Shown here: piece by piece, positions 603 through 18,013 of the stretch
Layout: each line of letters starts with the position of its first letter
How positions within the stretch are numbered: position 1 is the first letter of the stretch
Source: a virus
Virus record (IMG/VR): IMGVR_UViG_3300009104_000143
Span: 1-21,267 of that record
DNA: 21,267 nt
Direction: 5' to 3' (one strand)
Notes under the pieces: generated by a model
Seen by the model: only the letters and a program-made list of their open reading frames with translations
The model's database searches: none
Told to the model about the DNA's origin: nothing
Position numbers and translations under genes: made by a program

Positions 603-786
603 TTTTTTTCTTTGGTTCGGGTTTCACATCCTCCCGCAATTGTGCGGTGAGGTTGTAAATCAATGCGTCGGCCTCGGCCGAAGCGGCAAATTTTCTCAGG
701 AGGTAACCAATGACGACCACCGAAAACATAACGCCGGCGCCGATTGTGAAGCCAATAAAAAAAGTTGCTGCCGTGTGAGTGTCCAT
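577..786 (-). CDS. Small single-pass membrane protein of the lysis cluster
   Basis: The product has 69 residues with one membrane segment (about residues 7-30, AATFFIGFTIGAGVMFSVVVIGYLL), a middle part that could be helical, and a very basic tail (PEPKKKNVRRKPKK). The start codon overlaps the stop of the upstream gene as TAATG, so translation is probably coupled. A holin-accessory, antiholin or i-spanin-type role is possible from the position. No diagnostic motif is present. Confidence 0.55.
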   Translation of the reverse strand: MDTHTAATFFIGFTIGAGVMFSVVVIGYLLRKFAASAEADALIYNLTAQLREDVKPEPKKKNVRRKPKK

Positions 787-1001: not shown

Positions 1002-1004
1002 ACT

Positions 1005-1032
1005 CACCATTGGGTCAATCGTTCAGTTGGCC
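1005..1032 (-). promoter_or_regulatory. Start-associated 28-bp repeat, copy A
   Basis: This copy carries the shared core CAATCGTTCAGTCGG (one mismatch, TTGG) preceded by CACCATTGGG on the plus strand. It sits directly upstream of the membrane/coiled-coil gene. Here the repeat also supplies the TGA stop of the upstream 59-codon gene (1023-1025). The other copies are at 8553, 14213 and 15089. Confidence 0.8.
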
Positions 1033-1202
1033 CGCTTGCGGCCCTTCCTTTTGGTCAGCTTTCCAGCCTTTCCCCGGCGCCGGTATTCCTTGCTTGCCCG
1101 CTTGGGGTTTTGCCGCACCGCCCACAAGAAATCTTTGAGGGGGATTTTACTGGCAACACTGTCGTCGCCATCCAAAAACTTTTCTGCTAACTCTTTGCTC
1201 AT
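1023..1202 (-). CDS. 59-residue highly basic hypothetical protein
   Basis: The ATG at 1202 overlaps the TAA of the fibre gene (TAATG) and the frame runs to a TGA inside repeat copy A. The product starts MSKELAEKFLDGDDSVAS and ends in a lysine/arginine-rich tail (KLTKRKGRKRAN). The overlap and the fact that it fills the gap between fibre and lysis genes support a real gene. There is no membrane segment or recognisable domain. A nucleic-acid-binding or assembly role would be a guess. Confidence 0.55.
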   Translation of the reverse strand: MSKELAEKFLDGDDSVASKIPLKDFLWAVRQNPKRASKEYRRRGKAGKLTKRKGRKRAN

Positions 1203-3730
1203 TAGGAGGAATACCAGTAACCGTCATGATAGGATGAGGACACCCAAGCCGCGTCGCCGTCGCTGGTCATCTCAATTGAAATCCATGTATATGCGGTTTC
1301 AATCGCACTCAATCCTCCCGTGGCATTGTTAATTTCATCGTAATTATCAAAGATCACATCCGACCCGGCGGCGGCAACCTTAAACGTTTCCCAATTAGCC
1401 TCCAATGCATAAAATCTATACGTGACCCCGCCCACGCTTGAGGCAGAGGGCAGGGTGAGGGTGAAAGTGCCACTCAGTCCGCTTTGATTTAGCCAATAAA
1501 TATGGTCATCGGTTGCGGTCGCCGTGTGGGATGTTCCAGACGTTAGCTCGGTTGCCCCCGGGCCGCCTCCCCCGCCGCCCGTCGCGGCAATTGTCACCGT
1601 CGACCCCGCGCCGCCGTCGGTGAGGGAAATGCCTGTGCCCGCAGTCAAGACACGCTCATTGGTTAACGTCCCATTGACTCCCAACGTTACATAACTCGCA
1701 TCCGTTGGGGCACCGCCGCCCCCCCCGCCGCTTGCCGCTTCAATCTTTACTGTGCCGGCTGAATTGCTTCCCGTGATTGTCACGTTGTCGCCCGCGACAA
1801 GGCCCACGGAATTTGCGGAAACAAAATTATCAAAATTTACTGTGCCATCCCCCGATGCTGTGCCGCCGTCGGCTGAAATATCAATTGACTGTGCCACCGT
1901 GTCATCAATCGCAAAGGTGACTGTATCGGTTGCGCTGGCCACAGAATCGAGTCCATTGCCTCCCGCCAGGGTTACGGTGTTGCCGTCCTCAACCGTTTGG
2001 GTGGTTCCCGAGTCGCCATCCAAATCAAAGGAGGTCATGCCAGCCGCGCCGGGGTCGGCCCATGTATTGTCGCCCCTTAAAAATGTTGAGGAGGATGCGG
2101 TGCCCGTCGCGCTTAAATCAGCGCGGATGGTTCCCGAGGATGTGATTGTGCCTCCTGTGAGATCAATAAATGTCCCGTCGTTGGCGCATTCAATTGAGGT
2201 GACGGTGCCGTTGTTGTCAGCGGAAATGTTTATTGAATTCCCTGCACCCCCACCGCCCGTTACCGTGATTCCTGTGCCCGCGTATATAAACCATTGGTTT
2301 GCATCCGCCGACGTGCCGTAAATCTGATTCCACCCACCTGCGCCGTCGGAGACGTTTGGAACAATCGCGGCGTTGTATGAGATGTAAATCGGTTGATCTA
2401 CAACATCGATGCTGCCTGCCGTATTGTTGACGGGGCCACCCGTTGTAATGAATGAAGGCACGCCAGTGTATCGGGTGCCGCCAGTAAGGCGAACCGTTGC
2501 TCTTGTGGTCGTAAAATCGACATATATTGGCCCCGAAAGCTCGCCCATGATCCCAAAAGTGGTGTGCGTGTTGCCAATTTCCATTATGCCGGAAGCTCCG
2601 GCCATAGTGATGTTTTTCCCCTGCTTTAATGTTATCCGTCCGGGTGTTGCATCTGCCCATGTAATCAAGGCCATCTGCGAGCCTGCCGAATTTAACGCCT
2701 CCCCCTGCGTGATAAGGCCCGAAATCGCCACCTCGCTCGCGCTTGTGATATGCCCTTGTGCATTTACGGCAATTTGGGCGACGTTTGACGCATCCCCAAA
2801 AGTTGCCGCAGATACACCGCTGGCGGAATGGTTGAGCGTGATTGTGTCGGTTGCGCTTGCAACGCTTGCCAGATCGGTTCCCCCAAGGATGAAAAGCGTG
2901 TTGCCATCTTCAATAGTTTGGGCCGGCCCACTGTCACCATCTACCTCAAAAGATGTCATCCCCCCGCCGCCGCCCGTTGCTGCGATCGTCACCGTTGAAT
3001 TGGCGCCACCGTCGGTTATGCTAATTCCCGAGCCCGCCGTCAGGACACGCTCGGCGCTCAAGTCGCCGCTTGCGCTCATTACCACATAGGTTGCATCCGT
3101 TGGGGCACCGCTCCCGCCCGCTCCCCATGAAAGGTTGCCGTTGCCGTCAGTAGTTAATACCTGCCCGTTGCTCCCATCGTTTGGCCAAAAATACGTCGTG
3201 TCGTCGGGGGATGAATTTGAGGCGTGATGGGTGCCGGGGTTGCGGGTTCCCGGCATACCGCGCCCAAGGGTCAAGACCCCACTCCCTCCCGCCGTGTTTT
3301 GGATTGTAACGGTGCCCGCGACAGTTGTCGTTAGGTATAAATCAAATTGCGGCGCATATATGACCTTGCCATTTGTGTTGAGGTCAGCCGACAGCATGGG
3401 TGCGCTGTCCCAGCGCAAATCAGTTTGCAACCAAAGCTCAACAAAATTCCCGTCGGGGGTAAAAACCAACTCGGCGCGGTTGCGCTGGGGCGAGCCGGTC
3501 ACCACGCGGCCCGCTGTATTGAAAAGAATGTTCTCAATGAACATCTTAACTTTTTGCGCCTCGATCGCATCAAGCAGGGTGGGGCAGGTTCCTTTCTTGA
3601 AACTCGGAAGCTTTGGAAAGGCAATCCCGTTGATGACAAAATCGACGGCTTGCCCGAGGCGCGAAGCGGCCGGGTTATTCCCGCGCCGGCCGGCGGCGCT
3701 GGACATAGACTCTTTTGGAACGAGGGGCAT
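1202..3730 (-). CDS. Tail fibre protein with internal repeats
   Basis: This 842-residue protein is very rich in Gly, Ser, Thr, Ala and Asp. The first roughly 130 residues look like a folded attachment domain. Then come a fibre motif (NGQVLTTDGNGNLSWG) and repeated shaft modules. A RVLTAGxGIS(I/L)TDGG module followed by a poly-Gly hinge occurs near residues 213-257 and 676-720. An MTSF(E/D)xDGDSG module occurs near 258 and 565. The C-terminal domain (about 720-842, ending in aromatic residues) may be the receptor-binding or trimerisation tip. Phage fibres of this type bind the host surface as trimers. The gene starts two bases after the stop of the upstream tail gene. The N-terminal attachment and tip assignments are inference. 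Confidence 0.8.
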   Translation of the reverse strand: MPLVPKESMSSAAGRRGNNPAASRLGQAVDFVINGIAFPKLPSFKKGTCPTLLDAIEAQKVKMFIENILFNTAGRVVTGSPQRNRAELVFTPDGNFVELWLQTDLRWDSAPMLSADLNTNGKVIYAPQFDLYLTTTVAGTVTIQNTAGGSGVLTLGRGMPGTRNPGTHHASNSSPDDTTYFWPNDGSNGQVLTTDGNGNLSWGAGGSGAPTDATYVVMSASGDLSAERVLTAGSGISITDGGANSTVTIAATGGGGGMTSFEVDGDSGPAQTIEDGNTLFILGGTDLASVASATDTITLNHSASGVSAATFGDASNVAQIAVNAQGHITSASEVAISGLITQGEALNSAGSQMALITWADATPGRITLKQGKNITMAGASGIMEIGNTHTTFGIMGELSGPIYVDFTTTRATVRLTGGTRYTGVPSFITTGGPVNNTAGSIDVVDQPIYISYNAAIVPNVSDGAGGWNQIYGTSADANQWFIYAGTGITVTGGGGAGNSINISADNNGTVTSIECANDGTFIDLTGGTITSSGTIRADLSATGTASSSTFLRGDNTWADPGAAGMTSFDLDGDSGTTQTVEDGNTVTLAGGNGLDSVASATDTVTFAIDDTVAQSIDISADGGTASGDGTVNFDNFVSANSVGLVAGDNVTITGSNSAGTVKIEAASGGGGGGAPTDASYVTLGVNGTLTNERVLTAGTGISLTDGGAGSTVTIAATGGGGGGPGATELTSGTSHTATATDDHIYWLNQSGLSGTFTLTLPSASSVGGVTYRFYALEANWETFKVAAAGSDVIFDNYDEINNATGGLSAIETAYTWISIEMTSDGDAAWVSSSYHDGYWYSS
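1567..1705 (-). repeat. Diverged copy of a fibre shaft module
   Basis: DNA encoding the ERVLTAGTGISLTDGG module and its poly-Gly hinge. It aligns without large gaps to 2967-3110, which encodes ERVLTAGSGISITDGG. Third-position differences are many, so the duplication is old or under protein-level selection. Confidence 0.7.
2967..3110 (-). repeat. Second copy of the fibre shaft module
   Basis: Partner of the module at 1567-1705. Both copies end at the shared segment GCATCCGTTGGGGCACCG on the plus strand. A second module pair (encoding MTSFxxDGDSG, near 1905-2040 and 2835-2965) shows the same pattern. Confidence 0.7.
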
Positions 3731-3732
3731 CT

Positions 3733-4533
3733 TTATTGAGCAACCGTTTGGTGCTCGTACCGCACCCAGATATTGCCGGCAAATCTTTCAAGCGTCGATT
3801 GTGCGGCATAAATATAAGTTCCGCCGCTGACATAGCCGGTATAGGTCGAGTATGTTGGCGTGCTTGAATCGTCAACCTTATCAAGCACCGCCTCGCCACT
3901 GTCAATTGATCGAAACATTTGGTTGGCCACCGTCAAGTCGGTTTCAGGGTCGGTGGTCAACGCATAGTCGGCGGTGGTTCTGATTGTTGAGTTTAGGTTT
4001 TGGGGGGCGCGGTAGTTGGTATCTGCCGGCACCGCATAGTACCCGGGAAATTGAAAAACCGCCTCACTATAATCATACCAAGAATTGGGCACGGTAGAGT
4101 ATCGCCGGGTAAACTCAACCATTTCACCGCCTAGCTTGCGCGGTGATGTCTCCTCAACCAAATAGGCAACCGAGTAAACATTTGCGCCGTCTGAATGAGA
4201 GCCCACCACCGTGCAACCCGTGAAGGTTGTTGCGGTTCTTCCCGTATAGGGCACCTCCTCAGAACCAACCTTGAAACTGCCCGCATGAGGAAACCCAGAG
4301 GTTGAATCAACGGCAACGGTGGTGGTGGCCGAAGTGATCCCCCCATCGAGCGTGGTTGATGCCATGACCGTATCAAGGGAAGTTTGGAAAAAATCCCCCT
4401 CGTTGATGACCACATCAACCTCATAAAAAATGGCCGAGGTATTTTGGGGGATCGGATAATCAACACGCGGCTCGGTGGTGGTGATTGTCTCGGTTTGCCA
4501 ATTCGTTGAGGGGGCGTCAAAGGTGATTGCCAT
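3733..4533 (-). CDS. Distal tail / baseplate-type protein with a small inserted beta domain
   Basis: The product has 266 residues and starts MAITFDAPSTNW. Residues about 57-125 (STTLDGGITSATTTVAVDS, then GFPHAGSFKVGSEEVPYTG) match a short beta-rich insertion pattern common in phage tail and fibre proteins: alternating TTT/TVAVDST, then GFP, then G(S)EEVxYTG, then a cysteine-containing TFTGCTVV. The rest is rich in aromatic residues and threonine with no transmembrane segment. Its position between the tape measure and fibre genes is where lambda-type phages encode tail-tip proteins, so it probably links fibre to tail tip. The exact role is not determined. Confidence 0.6.
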   Translation of the reverse strand: MAITFDAPSTNWQTETITTTEPRVDYPIPQNTSAIFYEVDVVINEGDFFQTSLDTVMASTTLDGGITSATTTVAVDSTSGFPHAGSFKVGSEEVPYTGRTATTFTGCTVVGSHSDGANVYSVAYLVEETSPRKLGGEMVEFTRRYSTVPNSWYDYSEAVFQFPGYYAVPADTNYRAPQNLNSTIRTTADYALTTDPETDLTVANQMFRSIDSGEAVLDKVDDSSTPTYSTYTGYVSGGTYIYAAQSTLERFAGNIWVRYEHQTVAQ

Positions 4534-4538
4534 GGCGT

Positions 4539-7463
4539 TTACTGGTTGGTGATGCAGCCGCGCAACCGCTTTTCGATGGCGGCAATGTTTCGGTCAATGT
4601 TATGAATTGAGGTGAATGCCGCCTTGAGGTTTGTTGCCATTTCGCTTGATGATAGTGGCGGGGCAAATTGATGGCCAACTCTTTTGGCGCCCTCCTCCTT
4701 TTTAATCAGCCCCAAGGCCATCTTCTCCTCGTGCGTCAAGGCGATGGCCCCGCCCACGGCGGCGCCGCCCCTAAATTTAGGAATCTTGAAACCCTCCTTG
4801 ATTTCCCACCCTGTTTGGCCGGGGAACATAAACGGCAGCGGGTCTTTTGGCCCGATTTTCCCGCCGCCCTTTTCCTTCACAAAATATGCACCCAGCCTTT
4901 CAATTGTCTCATCGCAAAGCGCGACGCAATCGGGAAACACAACCTCGCCCACGGCGGCCGCCACCTCGGTTGCCCCCTCCTTGACTGCCTCGCCAACGGC
5001 GCCAACCTCCTTGACGGTTTCCTTGGTGCCGGCGGCTTGTTGCTCGGTTTGCTCCTTCATCGCTTGGGCACCCTCGCCCTTTGTCCTGGCGACTTGCTCA
5101 TCAATGATTTTCTGAAAATCACCGGGCCGGGTTTCGGCGGCTTGCCGTTGCTCCTCGGTCATCTTCTCCCACATCTCGGCACGCTTTTCGCCCTCCTCCT
5201 GTGCCCTTTTTGCTTCCTCGGCATTGCGCAATTTTAGCATCTCCTCGCGCTTTTTCTGTGCCTCGATTTCAGCCTTCGACGTGCCCATTATCTTGCGCTC
5301 GATTTCGAGGCGCTCATTGAGCTTGCGGCTTATGATTTGCCGGGCCGGCCCACCAATTCGGCCGGCGTTATATTCGGCAATCATTTCTTTCTCAGACATG
5401 CCGAGGCTCTCGGCAAGCTTGGCCAACGATTTGCTTTGCAACTCCTTGAGGAATTGTTGTTGCTCGGCAAACTTGGCGCCCATGGCAACTATCCTTTGCG
5501 CTTGGCTTTTGCCAAACGAATTCTCAAGCATTTTCTCAAGCGTGAAAGTGCCGCGCCCAAGCATCTTGTAAAGTTCAGGCAAGTTGGTTGCCCCGGCCAC
5601 GGCATGGGTTTTTTGAAGCGCCAAAACCATCGCAGGCGTGAGCCCCATCTTGGTCACCATCTCCCGGCCCTTGGCCTCAAGGCTTTTCTCCTCCTTGCTT
5701 TCTACCTCCTTGAGCTTGCCCAACGCGCTGGCAACCATCGCCATCGATTGCCCCTGCATTCCCTCCATCTTGGAAAGTTCGCCCGACTCATATAGCTGCA
5801 TCATTTCTGAGACAGAAATTTTCCTTCCAAGCTGATAGTGCAAAAATTTGGCCAACTCCTTTTTCCCCTCGATTGATGACATCGCGGTGGCGGCCTCAAC
5901 TTGGGCCACGTTGCTCTCGCGCATTTTCTTCATTTTTTCGCGGCGGATACTCTCCCGATCCATTTCCTTTTGCTTTGCATCAAGCTCCTGCATTTTCTCA
6001 ATCTTGGAATCAACCGCATCCCCATAAGCGACAGCCTCGCCGGTGACCTTCCCCGCCAACCAAGACAAGCCCCTGCCAATTTTTGTCCATCCATCAATGA
6101 TTGCCTCCATGATGGCAAATAAATCCTTTAATATATCGATCAAAAACTTAATGGCGCCCACATCGGCAAGCCCTTTGTACAGGGCCAGCGTGCCCTTGGT
6201 CATTTTCACCAATAACATTAAAAATTGAAATCCAAGATCAACCAAGTCCTTGATTGCGGTCTTTCCCTCGCCACTAAATGCAATTTTTATTTGTTCGCCG
6301 AGATCACTAATGGCATCGCTGAACTCATGCCAAGGCAACTCCTCAATCATCTTGAAAACCTCATCGATGATCGGGCCAATTGCTTTCAGAATGGGGGTGA
6401 GTTTTTGCCCAAATTCTACCATGAAAACCTTGAGCCGGGCTTTCATTTTGTCAAAAGCTCTCGACCAAGAGAGCTCCATTGTCCCGAACGCTTGCCCGCT
6501 CGCGCCCGCCTTTTTTCCCATTTCCTCAATTGCGTGCCCAAGTTTTTTCCCGCCACCCTCGGTCAATCCCATAACTGCATTCACCGCCTCAACTCGACCG
6601 AGAAGCGTTTTCATGTCGCCAATATTGCCGCCGGTTTTTTCCCTCAACATCTGGAATACTTTCAACACGCCCCCCGGCTTTTTGATTCCCTCTGCCATGT
6701 CTTTAAAGCTTATCCCCAGCGCCTTGGCTTTCATCAAGCCCGCTTCGGTGGGGGTGTTCATCGCCAAGATAGCCGAGCGAATTTGGGTCATGGCCTCGGC
6801 CGTGGGCACACCATTGGCGGTGAGGGCAGCCGCCATAGCGGCCAAATCATCGAAGCTGACCCCGGCCGCTTTTGCTATCGGGGTGGCCACGGCAATCGAT
6901 GATGACAATTCTTCAAAGGTGGTTTTGCCTAGCTTGACCGCTGTGAACATGGCATCGCTTGCCTCCTCGGCCGAGATCGTTTCCAATCCGTAAGCGTTTA
7001 CCACCGAGGTGATACCATCAACGGCAACCTCAAGAGATGTCACCCCGCCTACGGCAGCCTTGCCGGCAACCTCCAAGAATTCAAAAACATTACCCTTGGG
7101 AACGCCCGCACTCAATGCTTGGTAAAGGGCTGGCACCGTCTCCTCTGGCAAAAAGCCCATGGTTTTTGAAAGCTTGAGCGCGTCTTTTTCCATTGCCCCC
7201 ATGGCGCCCTTGGAGATGCCCGGCAAAAGCGTGAAAACCTCTTTCATGCCCTTATCGAATGCCATCATTTCCTTGACCGATACGGCGGCAAATGCGGCCA
7301 CGGCGGCGGCGGCGGCGGCAAACGCGGCGGCGGCCGCCTTGCCAACCGCTTGAGTTGCCTTGCCTAGTTTGCTCAGTTCGCCCTCTGCATCCTTGGCGCC
7401 TTTCTTCATGCCCGACGCATCAAGGCCAAGCACGGCGGTGATGACATTTTTTAGATTTGCCAT
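4539..7463 (-). CDS. Tail tape measure protein
   Basis: This 974-residue, mostly helical protein has a basic start, an alanine-rich hydrophobic stretch (about 40-62), a PhageMin/TP901-type core (about 63-300 with MAFDKGMKEVFTLLPG, then LPEETVPALYQALSAGVPKG, then SEEASD-type and GxTTFEELSSSIA segments) and long lysine/glutamate-rich coiled coils. Such proteins fill the tail tube during assembly and set tail length; at the usual about 1.5 angstrom per residue this one implies a tail of roughly 145 nm. It begins 13 nt inside the end of the chaperone-like gene. The GCC-repeat DNA around 7295-7340 encodes the poly-Ala stretch. Confidence 0.93.
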   Translation of the reverse strand: MANLKNVITAVLGLDASGMKKGAKDAEGELSKLGKATQAVGKAAAAAFAAAAAAVAAFAAVSVKEMMAFDKGMKEVFTLLPGISKGAMGAMEKDALKLSKTMGFLPEETVPALYQALSAGVPKGNVFEFLEVAGKAAVGGVTSLEVAVDGITSVVNAYGLETISAEEASDAMFTAVKLGKTTFEELSSSIAVATPIAKAAGVSFDDLAAMAAALTANGVPTAEAMTQIRSAILAMNTPTEAGLMKAKALGISFKDMAEGIKKPGGVLKVFQMLREKTGGNIGDMKTLLGRVEAVNAVMGLTEGGGKKLGHAIEEMGKKAGASGQAFGTMELSWSRAFDKMKARLKVFMVEFGQKLTPILKAIGPIIDEVFKMIEELPWHEFSDAISDLGEQIKIAFSGEGKTAIKDLVDLGFQFLMLLVKMTKGTLALYKGLADVGAIKFLIDILKDLFAIMEAIIDGWTKIGRGLSWLAGKVTGEAVAYGDAVDSKIEKMQELDAKQKEMDRESIRREKMKKMRESNVAQVEAATAMSSIEGKKELAKFLHYQLGRKISVSEMMQLYESGELSKMEGMQGQSMAMVASALGKLKEVESKEEKSLEAKGREMVTKMGLTPAMVLALQKTHAVAGATNLPELYKMLGRGTFTLEKMLENSFGKSQAQRIVAMGAKFAEQQQFLKELQSKSLAKLAESLGMSEKEMIAEYNAGRIGGPARQIISRKLNERLEIERKIMGTSKAEIEAQKKREEMLKLRNAEEAKRAQEEGEKRAEMWEKMTEEQRQAAETRPGDFQKIIDEQVARTKGEGAQAMKEQTEQQAAGTKETVKEVGAVGEAVKEGATEVAAAVGEVVFPDCVALCDETIERLGAYFVKEKGGGKIGPKDPLPFMFPGQTGWEIKEGFKIPKFRGGAAVGGAIALTHEEKMALGLIKKEEGAKRVGHQFAPPLSSSEMATNLKAAFTSIHNIDRNIAAIEKRLRGCITNQ

Positions 7464-8101
7464 GGTTTTGGTTTCCCGTTGGCCCTTTCGGCGGCGTCAA
7501 TCTTGCTCACTTTCTTGAGGTAATCGGCCTTGGCCCGATCCGCGTGGCGCCCGAAGGCAACCGTATCCTTTCCCTCTGAAAGCCGCACGCCCATGGCCTT
7601 GGCCAAAACGCTCATTTGCAAAAGGGGCAGAGTGAGCACCTCACGCATGGGCCAATGGTATTGAGAACAAAACCCGTCCAATGTTTGAGCCACCCACATT
7701 GGTGATGCCTCTCCCCCATCTGCCTCGGCCCGGTTGGCTGATTGCATTTCCATTGTCGCGGCGAAATGCTCACCCACTTCCACCGCGTACCATTTCCAAT
7801 TGAGGATTATGTTGATGGTGACAAAAACGCGCCGCCGCCATCCGCCAGGGCGGAAGTATGGCGACATTACCCAAAGCAGGTTGAGCACGTCCATGCGTCC
7901 GGGCGCCTTGTCGGCCCCAACAAATGGGCTGTCAATCGCCTCAAGCCACAGGAGGCGCTCAAGAGTCAAGGGCGCAATCCTAAACCGACCGATCTTGGCC
8001 GGTTGGGCAAGGAAAACAAGCGTTCCCTCAAGCCGGTCAAACTCCTTGGCCTCGGCGAGCTTGGGTTTGTATTGCTCCCACAATTCAGCGCGGGAAAGCA
8101 T
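7451..8101 (-). CDS. Probable tail assembly chaperone-like protein
   Basis: The product has 216 residues. Near residue 40 it carries a pattern seen in tail chaperone-type proteins, RFRIAPLTLERLLWLEAIDSP, followed by helical segments and a basic C-terminus (GKPKPWQI). It lies directly between the tube-like gene and the tape measure gene, where siphophages encode the chaperones (lambda gpG/gpGT) that hold the tape measure soluble. I found no obvious slippery site or second overlapping reading frame for a gpGT-type frameshift product. The identification rests mainly on position plus the weak motif. Confidence 0.55.
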   Translation of the reverse strand: MLSRAELWEQYKPKLAEAKEFDRLEGTLVFLAQPAKIGRFRIAPLTLERLLWLEAIDSPFVGADKAPGRMDVLNLLWVMSPYFRPGGWRRRVFVTINIILNWKWYAVEVGEHFAATMEMQSANRAEADGGEASPMWVAQTLDGFCSQYHWPMREVLTLPLLQMSVLAKAMGVRLSEGKDTVAFGRHADRAKADYLKKVSKIDAAERANGKPKPWQI

Positions 8102-8108
8102 CGCCGCG

Positions 8109-8477
8109 CTAGTTTATTTTTTCATAGAACGAAATTGAGCATTTCGCATAATCCCCTTGAGTTTGGGCATCGCCAACCTCGGTCAAAACATAGGTTGAAT
8201 TGTTGCGGGCGTTGGTGGTGCTTGTTACCATCTCGTGCCCGATCGAGGGGTTGGGGGCGGTAACGGCGGTGTCGGTCGAGTATTGGAGGGTTGCCGATCC
8301 CTCAACGCGATTGGGGACAAGCGTGGTGCCCAGAGGCTCGCCGTTGCTGTCGTTTATATCCACCCGGTTTGATCCGTAAGTGAAAGTTGCATTCTCCATA
8401 ACATAAGAAATGGAATTGATTGTCACCGGCGAGTCTTGGATTCCAAAACTTTGGGTTCCGTCTGAGGTAATTGCCAT
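8109..8477 (-). CDS. Probable major tail tube protein
   Basis: The product has 122 residues, beta-rich, without hydrophobic segments, rich in Thr, Ser and Asn, and ends CSISFYEKIN. It starts MAITSDGTQSFGIQD. A small beta-rich protein encoded just before the chaperone and tape measure genes is normally the tail tube subunit. CAAAGG about 8 nt upstream of the ATG is a reasonable ribosome binding site, one of the few in this window. The in-frame upstream TGA at 8481-8483 fixes the start. The tube call is positional. It could be another small virion protein. Confidence 0.55.
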   Translation of the reverse strand: MAITSDGTQSFGIQDSPVTINSISYVMENATFTYGSNRVDINDSNGEPLGTTLVPNRVEGSATLQYSTDTAVTAPNPSIGHEMVTSTTNARNNSTYVLTEVGDAQTQGDYAKCSISFYEKIN

Positions 8478-8480
8478 TGT

Positions 8481-8555
8481 TCAAGCCTTTGATTTTTCCC
8501 CGCTTTTGCGGGTCGGTTGTTTCAACTCATGGGCGGAAAGCACCGCCTTGTTCAC
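8481..8555 (-). CDS. Possible 24-residue leader peptide upstream of the tube-like gene
   Basis: A GTG at the end of repeat copy B opens a short frame (VNKAVLSAHELKQPTRKSGE, then KSKA) that stops at a TGA two codons before the ATG of the tube-like gene and in the same frame as it. The composition is protein-like (KQPTRKSGEKSKA). It might be a translated leader that couples to the next gene, or the remnant of an older N-terminus or gene. There is no independent evidence for expression. Confidence 0.3.
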   Translation of the reverse strand: MNKAVLSAHELKQPTRKSGEKSKA

Positions 8556-8580
8556 CAATGGGCCAATCGTTCAGTCGGGC
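8553..8580 (-). promoter_or_regulatory. Start-associated 28-bp repeat, copy B
   Basis: The core CAATCGTTCAGTCGG is exact and is preceded by CACCAATGGG. It begins four bases after the stop of the tail-terminator-like gene. Unlike the other copies it is not followed at once by an ATG; a GTG at its end opens the short leader frame, and the next ATG is about 75 nt away. Confidence 0.8.
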
Positions 8581-8584
8581 GCCC

Positions 8585-9067
8585 TTACGCGGGCCACGCA
8601 TCGTCACGAATCTCAAAAATTACCGCATAATTCAGGGATGAAATATTCAAGTCCTCATCGACCATGATTTCCTCGCCTGTGCCGCGTAAATCCTTGATGT
8701 CATAATACGGGAGGGTGGTTGAATCCCAATTATCTGCCGATCGCATCATGGCGACGCGCACCTTGGTGCGGTGCGTGGCCATGTTGGCTGATTGGCCAAC
8801 CGCGTTATCGGTGACAATCTCGGCCGTGAAGCTCGCATTGAATGCCCGGTAATCGATTGAATTGGGGGCGGCGCCCCCGTTGCGTGGCGCTGGGGGATCG
8901 ATCGCGGCGCCCATGTCAAGGCGCACCTCAATGCGCGGCAAGGTTAGCGTGGCCTCGCTGGCCGTGCGGGTGCAGGTCAAGCCGGTGGCCGTGTTGAGGA
9001 AAGTGGCGGCGGCGCTTTCAAAGTGCGCCTCAAATGAAAGGAGGTCGTCAAGATCGGTGGCGGCCAT
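8585..9067 (-). CDS. Probable tail terminator / tail completion protein
   Basis: The product has 160 residues. The N-terminal helix (MAATDLDDLLSFEAHFESAA) leads into an alternating beta core with RIEVRLDMG and YRAFNASFTAEIVTD, a THRTKVRVAMM segment, and an end SLNYAVIFEIRDDAWP. The helix-then-beta layout with a closing strand and acidic end resembles lambda gpU-type tail terminators, which cap the tail and join it to the head. It lies between the stopper-like and tube-like genes, as expected. The call is from layout and order, not a sequence match. Confidence 0.5.
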   Translation of the reverse strand: MAATDLDDLLSFEAHFESAAATFLNTATGLTCTRTASEATLTLPRIEVRLDMGAAIDPPAPRNGGAAPNSIDYRAFNASFTAEIVTDNAVGQSANMATHRTKVRVAMMRSADNWDSTTLPYYDIKDLRGTGEEIMVDEDLNISSLNYAVIFEIRDDAWPA

Positions 9068-9070
9068 GGG

Positions 9071-9406
9071 TCAAGCTTGGTAGCGAGCCGAGCATTCAAG
9101 GCCAAACCCCACGCCGGCCGCGTCCTTGGTGATTGTTTCCACCTTGAATTCTGTGGTGCCGTCATCGAGCACCCACCCCTTGCTTGGCATGGTTGAGACG
9201 CCGTTGCCGTTGAGGAAAAAGCGCACATCTATTTGTGTCTCGCGCCCATTCTCCTCAATCACAAAGGCATTGACCATTGCTTGGCGGGTCGCCGAAAACT
9301 CGACACCCACCGAGCCGGTCGGGAGAACCACCGTCAACGTCTCGGGGAAATCATCAAGCGCATGATCCATGTCGGCGCTCAGGATGGCGGTTGATATGCT
9401 GGCCAT
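9071..9406 (-). CDS. Probable head-tail stopper (gpFII-like) protein
   Basis: The product has 111 residues from the ATG at 9406; a TTG two codons earlier is less likely. The C-terminal part (KGWVLDDGTTEFKVETITKD, then AAGVGFGLECSARYQ) follows the pattern of head-closure proteins in which a DG-T turn precedes two strands. It is encoded just after the major capsid gene and its terminator-like hairpins, and its stop lies three bases before the next start. In lambda the equivalent slot holds FI/FII. Confidence is limited by the short length. Confidence 0.45.
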   Translation of the reverse strand: MASISTAILSADMDHALDDFPETLTVVLPTGSVGVEFSATRQAMVNAFVIEENGRETQIDVRFFLNGNGVSTMPSKGWVLDDGTTEFKVETITKDAAGVGFGLECSARYQA

Positions 9407-9418
9407 TTTCAAAGATTA

Positions 9419-9449
9419 GCCGCCGCCCTCGTCAGCCAAGGGCGGCGGC
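9419..9449 (-). terminator. GC-rich hairpin downstream of the major capsid gene
   Basis: A perfect 11-bp inverted repeat, GCCGCCGCCCT and AGGGCGGCGGC, with a 9-nt loop. On the minus strand it is followed by TAATCTTT, only a weak U-tract. It lies seven bases from the stopper-like gene, so it could act as a partial terminator, an mRNA 3'-end stabiliser, or a block to ribosome entry for the next gene. Confidence 0.6.
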
Positions 9450-9468
9450 CGTTTGTCACGACAACAAA

Positions 9469-9489
9469 CTTGCCGGGTTTACCGGCAAG
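9469..9489 (-). terminator. Second hairpin after the major capsid gene, terminator-like
   Basis: A perfect 8-bp stem CTTGCCGG / CCGGCAAG with a 5-nt loop, followed on the minus strand by TTTGTTGT. It begins about a dozen bases after the capsid stop codon. The stem, short loop and following T-rich bases fit a Rho-independent terminator of moderate strength, which would give capsid and decoration mRNA in excess over the tail genes. Confidence 0.6.
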
Positions 9490-9501
9490 ATGGTCGGCGC
9501 A

Positions 9502-10428
9502 TTATGCGCCGGTGATCGTCTCGCCGGCGTTCGCGTTGACAACGATTTCATCGGTGGACATGCGCACGCGCACCACGTTTGCGGGTGGTTGCTCGGTGCG
9601 GAATGTCTCAGAGATGTAAATGCCGCCTCGCTCGGTATATGCAAGCGTGCGTGCGGCGCCACCGGCCGACAATGGACCACCCTTCACTTGAATGACGTAG
9701 TAAGAGGTGGTTGGCCATATCTTTGAGGTGCTGGCCGTTTGGCCCTTCATCGCCGAGTTGTAGCGCGTATTGCAAAGGATGATGCCATCAACACCCAACA
9801 CGCGGGCGACTTGATCTTGCGACCATGCGAGCGTGCCAGAGCCGTTAATCAAGTTGCGCATGTCATCGGTTTGTAACATTTCTTGATACAAGCTCGATTC
9901 CATCACAACATTGATGCCCCCAAATATGCCATCGGCATTCAGGCGCATCACGGCCGCGTTGATGTCGCTAATGGGCGTGGCCGAGGCCACAACGCTCATG
10001 GCGGCGGTTGCCGCCGTGCTTGTGAAGCTCGCGCCACTCAAGAGGTTGGCTACCCGAATTTCGTGGCCGATCCGCAACGCATCGCGCAACTGCATCGCCG
10101 CGCTGGCGGTGATGTCAAATTGCGCGTCCGTTTCTGCTTGAGCAATTTCTATGTCATCGAGTGGGTTTTCGACTCCATACTCGATGCATTCGAACGTGGC
10201 CGAGCCATATTCCGAAATCGTGCTGGCATAGTTTGAGCCAGCCGCCCGGGGCTTGGTGAGGTCGTTGTTGAATTGGTTTGCCGCCACGTTGACGTAGGAG
10301 CCCTTGCGGGTATTTACGGCAAGCGGTGGTGCGATTTGTTCACCCACAAAGGGTTGTTCCGAAACGGCATTGACCACCTCGGAAATTACCGGCGAAAAGC
10401 TCGCCGAACTACTTGGGAAATAAGACAT
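9502..10428 (-). CDS. Major capsid protein
   Basis: The product has 308 residues and starts MSYFPSSSASFSPVISEVVN. The region includes an N-terminal arm, an ENPLDDIEIAQAETD segment, a long helix (about 105-130, AAMQLRDALRIGHEIRVANLL), then WSQDQVARVLGVDGIILC and a C-terminal strand RTLAYTERGGIYISETFRTE. This is the layout of HK97-fold major capsid proteins (long spine helix, P- and A-domains) of a lambda-type head. The leader is A/C-rich (AACCAAAAATAAACT) without a Shine-Dalgarno. It follows the decoration gene and is itself followed by two hairpins. No cross-linking Lys/Asn motif can be judged from the sequence alone. Confidence 0.85.
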   Translation of the reverse strand: MSYFPSSSASFSPVISEVVNAVSEQPFVGEQIAPPLAVNTRKGSYVNVAANQFNNDLTKPRAAGSNYASTISEYGSATFECIEYGVENPLDDIEIAQAETDAQFDITASAAMQLRDALRIGHEIRVANLLSGASFTSTAATAAMSVVASATPISDINAAVMRLNADGIFGGINVVMESSLYQEMLQTDDMRNLINGSGTLAWSQDQVARVLGVDGIILCNTRYNSAMKGQTASTSKIWPTTSYYVIQVKGGPLSAGGAARTLAYTERGGIYISETFRTEQPPANVVRVRMSTDEIVVNANAGETITGA

Positions 10429-10448
10429 AGTTTATTTTTGGTTATGGG

Positions 10449-10829
10449 TTAGGCCAAGAATGTTTGGTGTGGGATAACCTCGATGACATCGCCATCGGCG
10501 CTTGATGCTTGGAGCGCCACGCCGATCTTGGTGTTGCTTGAGTCGGTGCCGACCTTGCCGGTGCCGTCGATGTAAACGGTATCTGCTACGGCAATGGTGT
10601 TGCCCCCCGCGAGCACCTCAATGGTGCCGCCGGCGTTTAACAATTGCACATTGCCATAACCGCTTGCCGCGATGTCCTCGGTTGTAACGCCGATGATTTG
10701 CTCAGTAGCATTGTCGCCACTTGCGGCAATTGTGCCGCTTGAGTCGAGTGTCACGAGGGAGTAAGCCCCGAGAGCAACCGCCGTTGCTTGAAACGTGCGG
10801 CTGTTGAGTTGATGTGTGGTTGATCCCAT
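10449..10829 (-). CDS. Capsid decoration protein (DUF2190-like)
   Basis: The product has 126 residues and starts MGSTTHQLNSRTFQATAVALG. It is beta-rich and glycine/alanine-rich with the pattern AYSLVTLDSSGTIAASGDN, then IIGVTTEDI, then VADTVYIDGTGKVG, then GVALQASSADGDVIEVI. This matches the small capsid cement proteins often grouped as DUF2190 or decoration proteins, which stabilise the expanded head, like lambda gpD. Its place immediately before the major capsid gene is the lambda D-E order. It starts three bases after the stop of the protease/scaffold gene. Confidence 0.75.
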   Translation of the reverse strand: MGSTTHQLNSRTFQATAVALGAYSLVTLDSSGTIAASGDNATEQIIGVTTEDIAASGYGNVQLLNAGGTIEVLAGGNTIAVADTVYIDGTGKVGTDSSNTKIGVALQASSADGDVIEVIPHQTFLA

Positions 10830-10832
10830 GAT

Positions 10833-11390
10833 TTAATTGAGTTGTGGGGTTGTGGTTTGTTGGTTGAAAAGATTCTTGTTGGCCTTGTAAACCTCAATGA
10901 GCGCAATGGCGCGAGTGGCGCCGGCGTGCGTTTCGAGATACTCAGATACAAGGGCTTGCTTGGTTGCCTCGGCATCAACCTCAAGGGCTTCATCGGGCGC
11001 ACAATCCTCCTCGACCGGATCGGTGCCGGCGATTAACTCATTGAGCCGGCCCACCTCGGCGCGGGCCTTGGTAAGCTCGGTTGACATGTCCGCAATTATG
11101 CGGTCACGCTCCTCAACTCGGGTTTTGTACTCGGCAAAGGCAAGCTCGATCGGATCGGCGCTGGCCTCGGGTGCCTCGGCATCCTCAAGCACCTCAATGG
11201 GTGCGGCCTCGGCATCAAGTTGCTTTTTCTTTCTTGATTTTTTCTTGGGCGCCTCTGGCTCGGGTTGCGCATCCCCGCTTGGGGACGCCTCACCGTTGCC
11301 CTCGGCCGCCAGTCGTTTCTCAAGCTCGGCGCTGGCGCTGCCATTGCCCTCAAGCTCGATCACATCGGTGGTTGGTGTTTCGGTATTCAT
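10833..11390 (-). CDS. Possible internally started scaffold protein
   Basis: An in-frame ATG at 11390 would give a 185-residue protein (MNTETPTTDVIELEG...) consisting only of the coiled-coil, acidic C-terminal domain. The sequence just before it (AAAAAAATAACCCAAACCCA) is an A/C-rich, G-free stretch like the leaders of the major capsid gene and the 43-residue gene. Lambda makes its scaffold Nu3 the same way, from a start inside C. Whether this start is used is not known. Confidence 0.5.
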   Translation of the reverse strand: MNTETPTTDVIELEGNGSASAELEKRLAAEGNGEASPSGDAQPEPEAPKKKSRKKKQLDAEAAPIEVLEDAEAPEASADPIELAFAEYKTRVEERDRIIADMSTELTKARAEVGRLNELIAGTDPVEEDCAPDEALEVDAEATKQALVSEYLETHAGATRAIALIEVYKANKNLFNQQTTTPQLN

Positions 11391-12326
11391 TGGGTTTGGG
11401 TTATTTTTTTCATAATCTGGATTAGAGAAAAGCGACGCATTGGCGGCGGGGTTGTCGACAAAATCGGCCGACTGAATGTCAACCATTTGCACGCTTGGTA
11501 ATTCATTGAGGGCATCGCCAGGGCGCGAGCTCATGCCCGCATATTCAACCGGCCCCGAATTGGTTTCCCAAACAAGGTTGCCCTCAAAAACAAGGGAGAC
11601 GCCAAAATTGTCGGGCATGTTTTCGGCCATCTCAAAGAGGCGCTCAAAACGCTCGGCTTGGAATTTCTCAAAGCTTTCAAATGCCTCAAATACCCGCGCA
11701 CGGATTCGGTCGCCATCGAGATAAAAGCCCGAGAAGAAACCCACCTCATCAAGTAGCCGATCGCCCATGGCGTTGCGATGCGTGATGTATGCGGGCAACT
11801 TGCGGTCAAGCAACTTGGTGGCCGCATCGCGCAACGTGTTTTGCGTGATTAGAATGCCGTGCCCCTTCGCCTCGCCAACGCTAATGATGGAAATGTCATT
11901 GATGACGCGGGCATCACGGTTGACGCCTTGTGGCCCCACCTGAAATGTCCACGCCCGAAGCGATCGAGCCTCAACCTTTGCCCGGGCCGAATCCATGAGG
12001 CCGCCAGCGGCGTTGAAAATATCCTCCTCGCCGGTTTGAGCCGATCGGGTGCGGATCGCCCGCAATCCATTCAATGAAACGGTGCGAAAATTGTCGGTGA
12101 AGGGGTAACGGTAACGCCCTTTTGTCTCGGCGTTGGCCTCTGTGTTGTGGCCAAGAAACCAATCCCCGAAATCATCCCAGCCCTCTCGCTCGATATAGGA
12201 ATTTTCGGCCTCGGGGCTGGGGCCATCCCAACTTGCTGTTTGGGTGACTCGGCCGGCCTTGATTAGCTTGCGGGCGTGCGCAAGGCCGGCCGAGTTGAGG
12301 GAGGTGGCGAGGGATATGGTTTCCAT
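10833..12326 (-). CDS. Capsid maturation protease fused to a scaffold domain
   Basis: The product has 497 residues in three parts. Residues about 30-115 hold a small domain seen in phage head proteins (SYIEREGWDDFGDWFLG, ETKGRYRYPF). Residues about 140-300 look like a prohead protease: THRNAMGD with H183, FGVSLVFEG with S244, and ADFVDNPAAN near 287-296 as the closing strand. Residues about 313-497 are Glu/Ala/Lys-rich with coiled-coil heptads, as in scaffolds. Prohead proteases cut the scaffold and often the capsid N-terminus before DNA packaging. The gene lies between portal and decoration genes, the lambda C/Nu3 slot, although the protease type here is not the lambda gpC (S49) type. The catalytic residues are inferred by pattern. 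Confidence 0.75.
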   Translation of the reverse strand: METISLATSLNSAGLAHARKLIKAGRVTQTASWDGPSPEAENSYIEREGWDDFGDWFLGHNTEANAETKGRYRYPFTDNFRTVSLNGLRAIRTRSAQTGEEDIFNAAGGLMDSARAKVEARSLRAWTFQVGPQGVNRDARVINDISIISVGEAKGHGILITQNTLRDAATKLLDRKLPAYITHRNAMGDRLLDEVGFFSGFYLDGDRIRARVFEAFESFEKFQAERFERLFEMAENMPDNFGVSLVFEGNLVWETNSGPVEYAGMSSRPGDALNELPSVQMVDIQSADFVDNPAANASLFSNPDYEKNNPNPMNTETPTTDVIELEGNGSASAELEKRLAAEGNGEASPSGDAQPEPEAPKKKSRKKKQLDAEAAPIEVLEDAEAPEASADPIELAFAEYKTRVEERDRIIADMSTELTKARAEVGRLNELIAGTDPVEEDCAPDEALEVDAEATKQALVSEYLETHAGATRAIALIEVYKANKNLFNQQTTTPQLN

Positions 12327-12328
12327 GG

Positions 12329-12460
12329 TTAAGGTTTCTTGGTGGCGTCTTTCTTGTCCGCGTCCTTTTGTGCGTCCACAAATTTTTGCTCCATGGTGGT
12401 CAATTGGTCGTAAAGCTTTTTTGATGGCTTGGTCAGGTAGTCGGTGACTTTTTTTCTCAT
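12329..12460 (-). CDS. 43-residue lysine-rich hypothetical protein
   Basis: The frame starts at an ATG 15 nt after the portal stop and ends two bases before the protease start, filling the gap. The product reads MRKKVTDYLTKPSKKLYDQL and then TTMEQKFVDAQKDADKKDATKKP. It is charged, probably helical, and has no membrane segment. The A-rich leader (AATAAAACCCAAAAAATACC) resembles those of other head genes. No family is recognised; small proteins between portal and protease genes occur in other phages without known function. Confidence 0.5.
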   Translation of the reverse strand: MRKKVTDYLTKPSKKLYDQLTTMEQKFVDAQKDADKKDATKKP

Positions 12461-12475
12461 GGTATTTTTTGGGTT

Positions 12476-13981
12476 TTATTCTTGGCCGTTGCCCCCAAGT
12501 TGCGGGTCAACGGGTTCTTGATTGGGTTCGAGAAGGTCGGTGAAATTAGCCGAGGCAAAAACCGGGAACGGGTTGAACAATTCTTTCCACCCGCCCGGGA
12601 TGCCGAATTTTTCCGCGATCTCGGCGGCTTGCTTGATGTTTTGAGCTTTCCGGGTAAGGGCGCTTTCGGCTGTGTAACCAAATTGCGTCGAGATGTCGTC
12701 AAGAGACATGGCCCCGGCTTGCAAATAGGATAAATCCGACTTTGCTTGGGCCACGCGGTTAATCCACCGAAACCCTGGCGTTTGCCAGCGCACCGCAAAA
12801 GGGTTGGCGCCAGTCGGCGGCGAAATTATTCCCTCGGCGATCCACCGCTTGACTTTCCACTTGTAAATCCTGTTCAGGGTGTTGGCCAAGTTGCGTTGCT
12901 CCTCCTCAAGTGCGGATTGATATTGAAGCACCAACCCTTGCGATGCGGAAAAGGAGGTTTCGCCGATCGTCGAAAGGATGAATTCAACGGGGATGCCGAT
13001 TGCCGAGCCCACCTTTCGCAAGTGGTACATGCAAAATTGAATTCCATCTACGTTGGGGCGCCCCGAAGTGGTAATGGTGGAAATGTCCTCGCCCGGTTCC
13101 AGATAATGAAACGTGCCCGGCTCAAAGCGTTCAAGGCGGCCAACGCTGTCTTGCTCGCTCTCGTTCATTCGGTCAATGAGCTCAAATTGTGCCGCATTAT
13201 CTTTTTTCACCACGGCCGACAAGCTGGCCGAAACCTTGGCAGAAATGATTTCAATGGTTTCGTATTCGTCCAAATCTTGAAGCGCATTCACGCAACTCGC
13301 CAACTCAGCGACGCCGCGCCATTGGGCCGGCCTCATGCGCTTAAAGTGCAAAATGAAATCCCGGGCGGGAATGGGTCTAACATCGGTGAGCGAACCGTTG
13401 ACGCGCTTCCCAACCAAGTAGCGCAAGGGGCGCCCAAGGCCATTCACAATCACGCCTTGTTTGTTGGGGTCAGATTCAGACCAGACCGCAACCGAGTTGG
13501 CGTTGCCGATCCGCGAGCCTTCTATCAATTGAAGCTTGCCCGATCGGGTGAGGAGCAAGCCAATGTCACCAAAGAAAAGTGTAGAATCGACCACCTCTTT
13601 TTGCACCTCGGCCATGCTCATTTGGTGGGTCACCTCGGGATATTCGCTCCATTCACCCCACAAATTGACCAGCGCATCGTTGAAAGTCTCATCGTTTGTG
13701 GCCGGTTGCGGCAACACGCCATTGCCCACCACATCGGTTTTGCGCAAGCGAGAGATGGCCTTGCAAACGGGGTTGTTGCGCTTGAAATCCATGAGGGTTG
13801 AAATGAGCCGGTCGCGATCATATTGCGGAAGCTCGATCTCCTCAGAACGCAAAGGCATCATGCCCCGATTTTTGCGGTTGCGGGTATTCTTCACCGCGTC
13901 ATAACCAAGGAGGATGCGGCCAGCGGCCTTGGCTCTGTCCCACAATCCATGGGTGCGGGTGGTTGTGCCGTTTAATTCCAT
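12476..13981 (-). CDS. Portal protein (lambda gpB type)
   Basis: The product has 501 residues and matches the lambda-type portal family in length and pattern. An N-terminal helical region (about 55-100) has ISTLMDFKRNNPVCKAISRL, then TDVVGNGVLPQP. A central region contains FFGDIGLLLTRSGKLQLIEG and RDFILHFKRMRPAQWRGVAE (about 208-227). A C-terminal region has FILSTIGETSFSASQGLVLQ and NRIYKWKVKRWIAEG. Twelve copies form the ring at one capsid vertex through which DNA enters and leaves. The start overlaps the end of the gpW-like gene by 10 nt. Confidence 0.9.
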   Translation of the reverse strand: MELNGTTTRTHGLWDRAKAAGRILLGYDAVKNTRNRKNRGMMPLRSEEIELPQYDRDRLISTLMDFKRNNPVCKAISRLRKTDVVGNGVLPQPATNDETFNDALVNLWGEWSEYPEVTHQMSMAEVQKEVVDSTLFFGDIGLLLTRSGKLQLIEGSRIGNANSVAVWSESDPNKQGVIVNGLGRPLRYLVGKRVNGSLTDVRPIPARDFILHFKRMRPAQWRGVAELASCVNALQDLDEYETIEIISAKVSASLSAVVKKDNAAQFELIDRMNESEQDSVGRLERFEPGTFHYLEPGEDISTITTSGRPNVDGIQFCMYHLRKVGSAIGIPVEFILSTIGETSFSASQGLVLQYQSALEEEQRNLANTLNRIYKWKVKRWIAEGIISPPTGANPFAVRWQTPGFRWINRVAQAKSDLSYLQAGAMSLDDISTQFGYTAESALTRKAQNIKQAAEIAEKFGIPGGWKELFNPFPVFASANFTDLLEPNQEPVDPQLGGNGQE

Positions 13982-14211
13982 GATCGAAAATCCATCCGGT
14001 TGTTGCCGATCACCTTGGTGGTGGTGTCGCGGGCCAATATTTCGCGGGTCAAATCTCGTATTTCCTTGAGCAAGGAGTGGCGCGACTCGTACCCAAAAGT
14101 GCGATCGCCGAGGGTATATGTGGCCGTTGGTGAGGTTGAAATGGTAGTGTATGCCGTGACCAGATTGTCACGCATTGTAGTCAAGTCCGCGATTGAGACA
14201 TTTGCCGCCAT
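13972..14211 (-). CDS. Head-tail connector protein (gpW-like)
   Basis: The product has 79 residues: an N-terminal helix (ADLTTMRDNLVTAYTTIS), a beta hairpin (ATYTLGDRTFGYES), and a second helix (SLLKEIRDLTREILARD). That is the helix-hairpin-helix fold of lambda gpW, which binds the portal and completes the head. As in lambda W-B it lies just upstream of the portal gene, and the two overlap. The ATG is two bases after the GGTG that ends 28-bp repeat copy C. The call is supported by both layout and gene order. Confidence 0.7.
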   Translation of the reverse strand: MAANVSIADLTTMRDNLVTAYTTISTSPTATYTLGDRTFGYESRHSLLKEIRDLTREILARDTTTKVIGNNRMDFRSWN

Positions 14212-14212
14212 T

Positions 14213-14240
14213 CACCATTGGGGCAATCGTTCAGTCGGGT
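14213..14240 (-). promoter_or_regulatory. Start-associated 28-bp repeat, copy C
   Basis: The core CAATCGTTCAGTCGG is exact and is preceded by CACCATTGGGG. It fills almost the whole gap between the stop of the basic 281-residue protein gene and the ATG of the gpW-like gene. Confidence 0.85.
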
Positions 14241-14241
14241 G

Positions 14242-15087
14242 TCAGGAAACGCGCACGTTGGGGTAGTTTTTGGCAACAAATTTCAGGTCATCAAAAAAGC
14301 CTTTTTTCATTCCTTTTCTGAATAAACCCACGCGCCCGTTGATGGCCGATTGCGCGGCCGCCACGCCTTTTGTGAAGGGGTTGAGCGTGTTTGCTGTTTC
14401 AATCTGAAATTTGATAAGGTAGCCCTCGGGCTCTTGTTTTGCTGACCCCGTTTGGGATTGCTGCCACGCCTTTGACGCCCCCCCGTGCTTTGGCCCCTTA
14501 CCCCTTGCTGCGGGGGCGCCCCGGCCTTTGCCAGCCCTCTTTTGCACCAAGTAAGCTTTTTTGATGTATTTTGAATCTGCCCCCCAATTCCTTCCGTATC
14601 CGGGCAGCTTGAGGGAGTCCTTGGCCGTTGCATAAAAGATCGCCTTGCTTAACCCGACGCGATCGAAGGCGCGTTTCTTGTAGAAATCGAGCCGTTTCTT
14701 GACGCGAGAATTGTGCGAGCTTAAATCTTGAGCCTTGATGAATCGACCCGACACCTTATCCCGCCCGGCCCCGGCCTTCAACACGCGGGTGCTCACAAGC
14801 TTGCCGTTAAGTCGCACAAAAGGAATAAATTTTGCGTTTGAGGGATTGTATCGGGCCTTGATTTTGTTGATGTTTGTGCGCTTTGTTTTCCTCGCCGCTC
14901 CTTGCAAAATGCTCAGAGCTTCCGAATTCATTACTTCAATTGCTGTGAGCGGGGGCTTGAATTGATCCTGTAATTGCACAAGCATCTTGTTGAATTCCGC
15001 GGTGTCTAACGTCCATGCGCCAGCGCCGCCTTTCGCTTTTACTTGTTGGAGAAAAGTTTTTTTGCGGGGCTTTTTTGCGGCGGCCAT
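14242..15087 (-). CDS. Basic 281-residue protein of unknown function, flanked by repeats
   Basis: The chosen ATG at 15087 (MAAAKKPRKKTFLQQVK) lies just after repeat copy D; an in-frame ATG at 15258 would add 57 residues overlapping terL and is unlikely. The protein is very lysine-rich. A helical segment at about residues 29-66 (EFNKMLVQLQDQFKPPL, then MNSEALSILQGAARKT) is faintly like minor tail or neck proteins that start with such a helix. A Gly/Lys-rich low-complexity part (about 190-220) and a mixed C-terminus follow. It sits between terL and gpW, where lambda has nothing. A head-tail joining or DNA-associated role is possible; no family is recognised with confidence. Confidence 0.65.
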   Translation of the reverse strand: MAAAKKPRKKTFLQQVKAKGGAGAWTLDTAEFNKMLVQLQDQFKPPLTAIEVMNSEALSILQGAARKTKRTNINKIKARYNPSNAKFIPFVRLNGKLVSTRVLKAGAGRDKVSGRFIKAQDLSSHNSRVKKRLDFYKKRAFDRVGLSKAIFYATAKDSLKLPGYGRNWGADSKYIKKAYLVQKRAGKGRGAPAARGKGPKHGGASKAWQQSQTGSAKQEPEGYLIKFQIETANTLNPFTKGVAAAQSAINGRVGLFRKGMKKGFFDDLKFVAKNYPNVRVS

Positions 15088-15088
15088 A

Positions 15089-15116
15089 CACCAAAGGCCC
15101 AATCGTTCAGTCGGCC
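15089..15116 (-). promoter_or_regulatory. Start-associated 28-bp repeat, copy D
   Basis: The core CAATCGTTCAGTCGG is exact and is preceded by CACCAAAGGCC. It starts immediately after the terL stop and ends at GGTG, two bases before the ATG of the 281-residue gene. It is in the same orientation as copy C, so the two copies form a direct repeat around that gene. Confidence 0.85.
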
Positions 15117-18002: not shown

Positions 18003-18013
18003 GTTGAGAGGTG

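Follow-up and report, generated by a model that had tools for sequence, protein, structure and literature searches.

The stretch of viral DNA analysed here, hereafter the window, comprises 21,267 nucleotides (positions 1 to 21,267 of IMG/VR record IMGVR_UViG_3300009104_000143). Its minus strand carries terL, a minor-head-like gene, a gpW-like gene, a fused protease-scaffold frame, a tail-tube-like gene and a holin-like gene (Table 1). Four copies of a repeat lie in the window, every one at a gene junction and on the coding strand, where they read CCRACTGAACGATTGNNCCNWTGGTG; they align over about 26-28 bp. We refer to the repeat and its counterparts in related phages as the element, and number the junctions where it occurs S1 (terL/minor head), S2 (minor head/gpW), S3 (protease/scaffold), S4 (g8585/tail tube) and S5 (before the holin). 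The core CAATCGTTCAGTCGG is on the plus strand as written at all four copies, so that its orientation to the minus-strand genes is the same throughout. It is exact at 8564-8578, 14224-14238 and 15100-15114 and has one mismatch at 1016-1030, as an earlier note on this DNA had described it. The four positions and the single orientation given in that note are likewise confirmed: with up to three mismatches allowed, 0.70 core matches are expected by chance, and none of 100 shuffles reached five.

Table 1. Positions of the repeat copies and neighbouring features in the window
Feature	Positions	Strand	Remarks
Holin-like gene, downstream of S5	786-1001	-	phrog_1296 holin, E=3.8e-5; phrog_462, E=8e-9
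S5 copy	1005-1032	-	precedes the holin-like gene
59-codon ORF	1023-1202	-	stop codon within S5
Tail-tube-like gene, downstream of S4	8109-8477	-	71-89% identical in most relatives
GC hairpin GGCGG/CCGCC	8532-8547	-	immediately past S4
S4 copy	8553-8580	-	3' of the stop of gene 8585-9067; tail-tube ATG (8477) about 75 nt further
Fused protease-scaffold ORF	10833-12326	-	internal scaffold ATG at 11390
gpW-like head-tail adaptor, downstream of S2	13972-14211	-	phrog_118, E=1.8e-5
S2 copy	14213-14240	-	separates the minor-head-like gene from the gpW-like head-tail joining gene; gap of 30 nt
Minor-head-like position gene, downstream of S1	14242-15087	-	
S1 copy	15089-15116	-	separates terL (15117-16934) from the minor-head-like gene (ATG 15087)
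Small HTH protein	19396-19851	-	upstream of terS; candidate reader of the element

The copies differ in how they fit between the genes. At S1 the element occupies the entire gap, with a TGA immediately upstream and an ATG 1 nt downstream, and at S2 an ATG also follows after 1 nt. At S5 the ATG at 1001 stands 3 nt past the repeat; the holin probably starts there because the alignment of its homologues begins at that methionine. The S5 copy contains its own TGA (1023-1025), the stop of the 59-codon ORF, so that the earlier statement that the copies begin at or just after the upstream stop codon fails at this site. An ATG 1-3 nt behind the repeat was correctly noted for three copies and is lacking at S4. 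Similarly, the repeat forms the complete intergenic gap at S1, as had been proposed for all copies, but not at S4, where the sequence before the tail-tube start contains hairpins. The fused protease-scaffold frame of the window has no recognisable element at S3. No database match was found for the minor-head-like gene.

The exact 15-mer is present in 47 stretches of viral contigs, which is about the chance level for a collection of that size, and a 19-base pattern was therefore used instead. This pattern matches only three IMG/VR contigs, all from the window's own species. They encode an MCP identical to the window's, and the longest is 99.2% identical to the window DNA; they are therefore the same phage species and provide no independent evidence. 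The earlier note had suggested looking for the repeat at start sites in close relatives, and these three contigs keep it there. In contig L097 of the species, a small SymE-like protein (type I toxin family) is encoded downstream of the lysis genes at 688-1017 (Pfam E=1.2e-5, under the curated cut-off).

Searches with the MCP and the tail-tube protein yielded about 40 related contigs, with protein identities of 41-71%. The MCP has no match in 50,697 phage records, and MCP and tail-tube queries detected no relatives in 84,980 bacterial and archaeal genomes, hence no host was found. The nearest isolates, judged by terminase, are less than 30% identical.

Most relatives carry their own 23-28-bp repeats at the orthologous junctions. 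The distant relatives thus keep the element at the same sites as the window with its sequence changed, and the absence from close relatives that would have counted against the earlier note is not observed. We distinguish seven sequence classes, each lineage-specific, with the approximate consensus sequences CTRAACGATNNNCCCAAGGGTGA (class W: the window, L089, L074 and L064), GGTAGACGTTTCGCCCTTTAGTAGA (class A), GGTTGACACCGAGCCCATTANTAGA (class B), GGGTGACAAATNNACNAAGGGTAAA (class C), TTGGGACAAACNNNCNAAGGGTGAAG (class D), GTAGACAANNGCCAATTANTAAAG (class E) and AAGTTGACGGCGCGCGCCTTNGTAAA (class F, which has an additional element at portal/protease). Most copies share a common layout: a conserved 5' block that contains GAC or AAC, a variable spacer, and a 3' block, GTR or a near variant, with 13 nt between the two anchors. 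Scans with lineage PWMs detected 3-5 strong sites per element-positive contig. Every one of them falls at S1-S5 in coding-strand orientation; the longest contigs, which include 11-18 kb of non-structural DNA, have none in that part. In the contigs scanned, the element is confined to the structural and lysis operon. L064, L073/L074 and L090 carry element variants; L055, L056, L060-L063 and L081 are element-negative. Matches to GGGACAAA inside terL were rejected as elements, as this sequence is coding (WDKKAN motif). The element-negative relative L055 has runs of 10-bp tandem repeats (TTGGTGAGAR; ACCAACTCTC) immediately 5' of start codons at 5770-5953 and 814-928.

The placement of the element relative to genes varies from site to site. 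In every class found at S1 and S2, the start codon falls at positions 24-27 of the 26-mer, apart from a single case at 32. It falls at about 25-37 for S5 and about 24-39 for S3, the spacing varying by more than 10 nt at both. At S4 the tail-tube start is usually 40-90 nt away, with no conserved small ORF in between in the relatives. Overall, the start codon lies between about 3 and about 90 nt past the 3' block, depending on the site. The gap between the upstream stop and the gpW ATG at S2 measures 25-30 nt with an element and 0-9 nt without one (L055, L056, L060, L073 and L096). All 17 copies at S3 are contained in an open frame of 336-719 codons running through protease and scaffold, and sit just 5' of an internal ATG. 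A fused protease-scaffold frame with an internal start resembles the C/Nu3 arrangement of phage lambda. Where genes or other sequences have been inserted at S4 (L089, L074) or S2 (L088, L075), the element remains with the downstream gene.

Hairpins accompany some of these sites. At S4, most classes have a GC hairpin that starts 3-11 nt past the 3' block, suggesting a resemblance to a capped leader. Separately, a small hairpin (CG-N-GCC-GAAAN-GGC-CG; window 8514-8529, minus strand) precedes the tail-tube start in both element-positive and element-negative phages (the window, L055, L056, L060, L081, L075, L083 and L088). Its five pairs are kept in 8 of 8 rows, two of them with changes on both sides, and it has no match in Rfam. 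Four lineages have an intrinsic terminator that precedes the element by 11-15 nt: L089 and L074 at S4, and L088 and L085 at S2. The succession of terminator, element and essential genes is suggestive of renewed transcription. It is no proof of a new start, because the terminator after the MCP gene has element-less genes behind it. That terminator-like hairpin (window ~9420-9489, minus strand, between the major head gene and gene 9071) recurs at the same place in most relatives of the clade.

The copies within one phage change in concert. Different sites of the same phage are 69% identical, against 42% for a given site compared between classes and 39% for different sites in different classes. 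When phage labels were permuted within sites, none of 2000 permutations reached 69% (mean 44%, sd 1.4%). The class labels track the MCP tree (8 changes, 16 expected), with the exception of L079 (class B) and L072 (class C). These are sisters in that tree (support 100/99), yet all of their copies differ in class, a natural specificity swap. Copies that change together while their positions stay would be expected of sites that share one trans-acting reader, which points to a phage-encoded, sequence-specific factor as the most likely reader. Among the three functions offered in the earlier note (translational enhancer, regulator-binding site and recombination linker), this concerted lineage-specific change supports the regulator-binding site best.

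The same pattern contradicts the linker. A recombination linker or boundary sequence that aids the exchange of gene modules would explain why elements lie exactly at gene boundaries and why extra genes are inserted beside them at S2 and S4. Lineages that exchange modules should share their linkers, however, whereas here the copies of one phage resemble each other and those at orthologous sites diverge between lineages, and one copy lies within an ORF (S3). We consider this explanation very improbable. The concerted change also disfavours a selfish, spreading short repeat or a chance duplication without function. Such an origin would be compatible with the element-negative relatives, but hardly with occupation of the same five junctions at ~60-70% and even 41-53% protein identity, on a single strand, with conserved block spacing and with S3 in frame throughout; we regard it as extremely improbable.

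Whether a regulatory site would act on transcription or on translation is a more difficult question. An element of translation initiation, that is, a conserved leader that replaces the Shine-Dalgarno sequence (SD) or serves as a binding site for a translation factor of the phage or the host, would have a role like that proposed for the start-associated sequences (SAS) of mycobacteriophages. The nearly fixed start codon at S1 and S2 and the position of S3 before an internal start agree with this, as does the weak anti-SD pairing of most gpW starts behind an element, which is weaker than that of the MCP, tail-tube and g8585 starts of the same phages. However, the tail-tube start remote from S4 usually has its own SD, and the highly translated MCP gene has no element. 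Classes C, D and part of W have a core able to pair with the anti-SD, which the 3' blocks of A, B, E and F lack. As the start-codon spacing and the SD pairing differ between sites, no single rule of ribosome placement fits. The seven classes changing in concert at shared junctions, with one copy within an ORF and one remote from starts, separate a role in translation initiation from that of a DNA (or RNA) site read by a trans factor. We also considered an RNA hairpin within the element and rejected it: RNAalifold gave no structure in six of the seven classes and a marginal one in class B. The element has no match in Rfam. A translational enhancer, as in the earlier note, is therefore disfavoured as a general function by the position of S4, the range of spacing, the classes that lack an SD-like 3' core and the absence of conserved RNA structure, and a translation-initiation role seems to us somewhat unlikely.

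Nor does the element have the geometry of a standard bacterial promoter. Its blocks are 16 bp apart, start to start, a spacing that fits neither sigma-70 nor ECF nor sigma-54 promoters, and these were rejected. Scanning for sigma-70 promoters (-35/-10 hexamers 16-18 nt apart) gave 12 sites in the window compared with 11.9 by chance, and none of the predicted sites overlaps an element in the window. Inspection of the ORFs in the long contigs showed no gene for a single-subunit phage RNA polymerase.

Gene content was compared for a possible trans factor, and one family alone stands out, although inseparably from phylogeny: a small HTH protein of 127-153 residues (alignment A2) encoded upstream of terS. 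All element-positive contigs that extend to this position have the gene (the window/G001, G003, G008, G012, G019 and G018). The element-negative 35-kb contig G004 lacks it, as do the 3.5 kb upstream of terS in G002. Members of the family are also encoded next to terL in some distant phages, represented by short contigs in which no element is seen. The correlation of element similarity with HTH similarity (r=0.84) is no better than that with portal similarity (r=0.80), so that the co-variation is confounded by phylogeny. The protein shows a generic, weak similarity to sigma region 4/GerE (Pfam Sigma70_r4_2, E=1.4e-4, in one member; PDB 1fse, E=0.0016). A fold search with its model (pLDDT 71) returned generic HTH proteins only, with E above 0.3, and no match to a curated activator family of the RinA/ArpU type was found. 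In the RinA/ArpU systems, a small HTH protein encoded upstream of terS activates late genes, and its counterpart here would be a candidate reader of the same kind; those systems are known for one late promoter, compared with five dispersed sites here. From its location and distribution, we infer that the HTH protein is the best candidate reader.

The neighbourhood of terS has further features. The window has a QueD gene upstream of terS (17541-18002, minus strand), L055 has QueC, QueE and FolE matches there (810-3385), and L069 has ORFs similar to these 7-deazaguanine pathway genes of L055 (345-2827); such genes suggest modified bases in DNA or tRNA. Between the HTH gene and terS/QueD, at 18887-19223 and 18001-18086, the window has 11-bp tandem repeats together with low-complexity sequence rich in CA/AAC. 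Relatives' contigs tend to stop near this region, perhaps at an assembly break or a genome end.

Our favoured reading, to which we give an even chance, is that the element is a control site of the late operon with a lineage-specific phage factor as its reader, probably active in transcription rather than as a ribosome-binding signal. A large, siphovirus-like clade of uncultured phages would carry a bipartite cis-acting site in its late operon, with the window's repeat as the form of one lineage. Heading five gene blocks, this DNA site would start or gate the expression of each late block and may be read by the HTH protein encoded just upstream of terS. In a possible promoter variant, transcripts would begin at the 3' block, giving near-leaderless mRNAs at S1 and S2 and a hairpin-capped leader at S4. 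A more specific proposal seems unlikely to us, namely that one small HTH protein resembling sigma region 4 directs expression at five dispersed bipartite sites, with near-leaderless mRNAs at some of them, and that protein and sites switch specificity together between lineages, the site positions remaining fixed.

A site of this kind could also serve repression. In a roadblock like that of the stoperators, a repressor would halt elongation of the late operon in the lysogen, as does L5 gp71. The sites are, like stoperators, asymmetric, intergenic, in one orientation and lineage-specific in consensus (PMC9283540, PMC6550527), and an integrase is present in the window's species. But there are only 4-5 sites, restricted to the late operon, with none near early or regulatory genes in near-complete contigs, although a stoperator repressor uses its site as an operator too, and no repressor has been identified in these phages. 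We therefore judge a roadblock to be quite unlikely.

Known repeats share single properties with the late-operon element. Cluster A stoperators are 13-14 bp long and occupy 20-30 sites genome-wide, promoters included, and their consensus and trans factor diverge jointly between lineages (PMC9283540, PMC6550527). The element similarly lies in short intergenic spaces and is oriented with transcription; in contrast, it has 3-5 strong copies per contig and none in the early regions covered by the contigs, which may be incomplete. The T1-like phages TLS and Stevie, which infect E. coli and Citrobacter, carry 16-21 copies of 21/22-bp intergenic repeats along the direction of transcription, with an undefined role; the TLS repeat is bipartite, with conserved ends and a variable middle, and lies ~76 nt upstream of starts (PMC11447400, PMC4319613). 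The element is likewise bipartite, intergenic and aligned with transcription, but its sequence is unrelated to these repeats. In Microbacterium phages, cluster EC has an 18-bp asymmetric motif in small intergenic gaps 21-30 bp from starts of mostly non-structural genes, and cluster EI has a 30-bp motif in five copies and a phage with a sigma factor gene (PMC7302621). These motifs, compared together with those of cluster EF, differ in sequence from the element, and the hosts of EC and EI are Actinobacteria. The Citrobacter phage Mordin, a Felix O1-like myophage, has a 26-bp SAS-like repeat upstream of eight hypothetical genes in its left arm (PMC4611695). It is comparable to the element in length and in its position upstream of translation starts, but has a GGAG core and an unrelated sequence.

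The likeness to mycobacteriophage start-associated sequences drawn in the earlier note is apt in kind. The SAS/ESAS of cluster K are short, asymmetric and in one orientation a few nt 5' of start codons; the upstream stop may fall within the repeat, and the consensus varies between subclusters (ESAS) (PMC3203893). The SAS is 13 bp long (GGGATAGGAGCCC) with an AGGAG Shine-Dalgarno core and has 11-19 copies among the non-structural genes of the right arm (PMC3203893); its function was still called undefined in papers of 2024 and 2025. The element is near start codons at S1, S2, S5 and mostly S3, but not at S4. It is 23-28 bp long, usually lacks an SD core, has 4-5 copies in the structural and lysis operon only, one of them remote from a start and one in an ORF, and the SAS consensus is unmatched by any of the seven classes. 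Short one-orientation repeats at gene starts are thus known from several unrelated phages, the SAS having been described in 2011. The kind is familiar; the restriction to the late operon, the in-frame copy at S3, the sequence and the concerted pattern are new, and seven classes at five shared junctions, with the copies of each phage changing together, offer something that the earlier cases of phage repeats lack.
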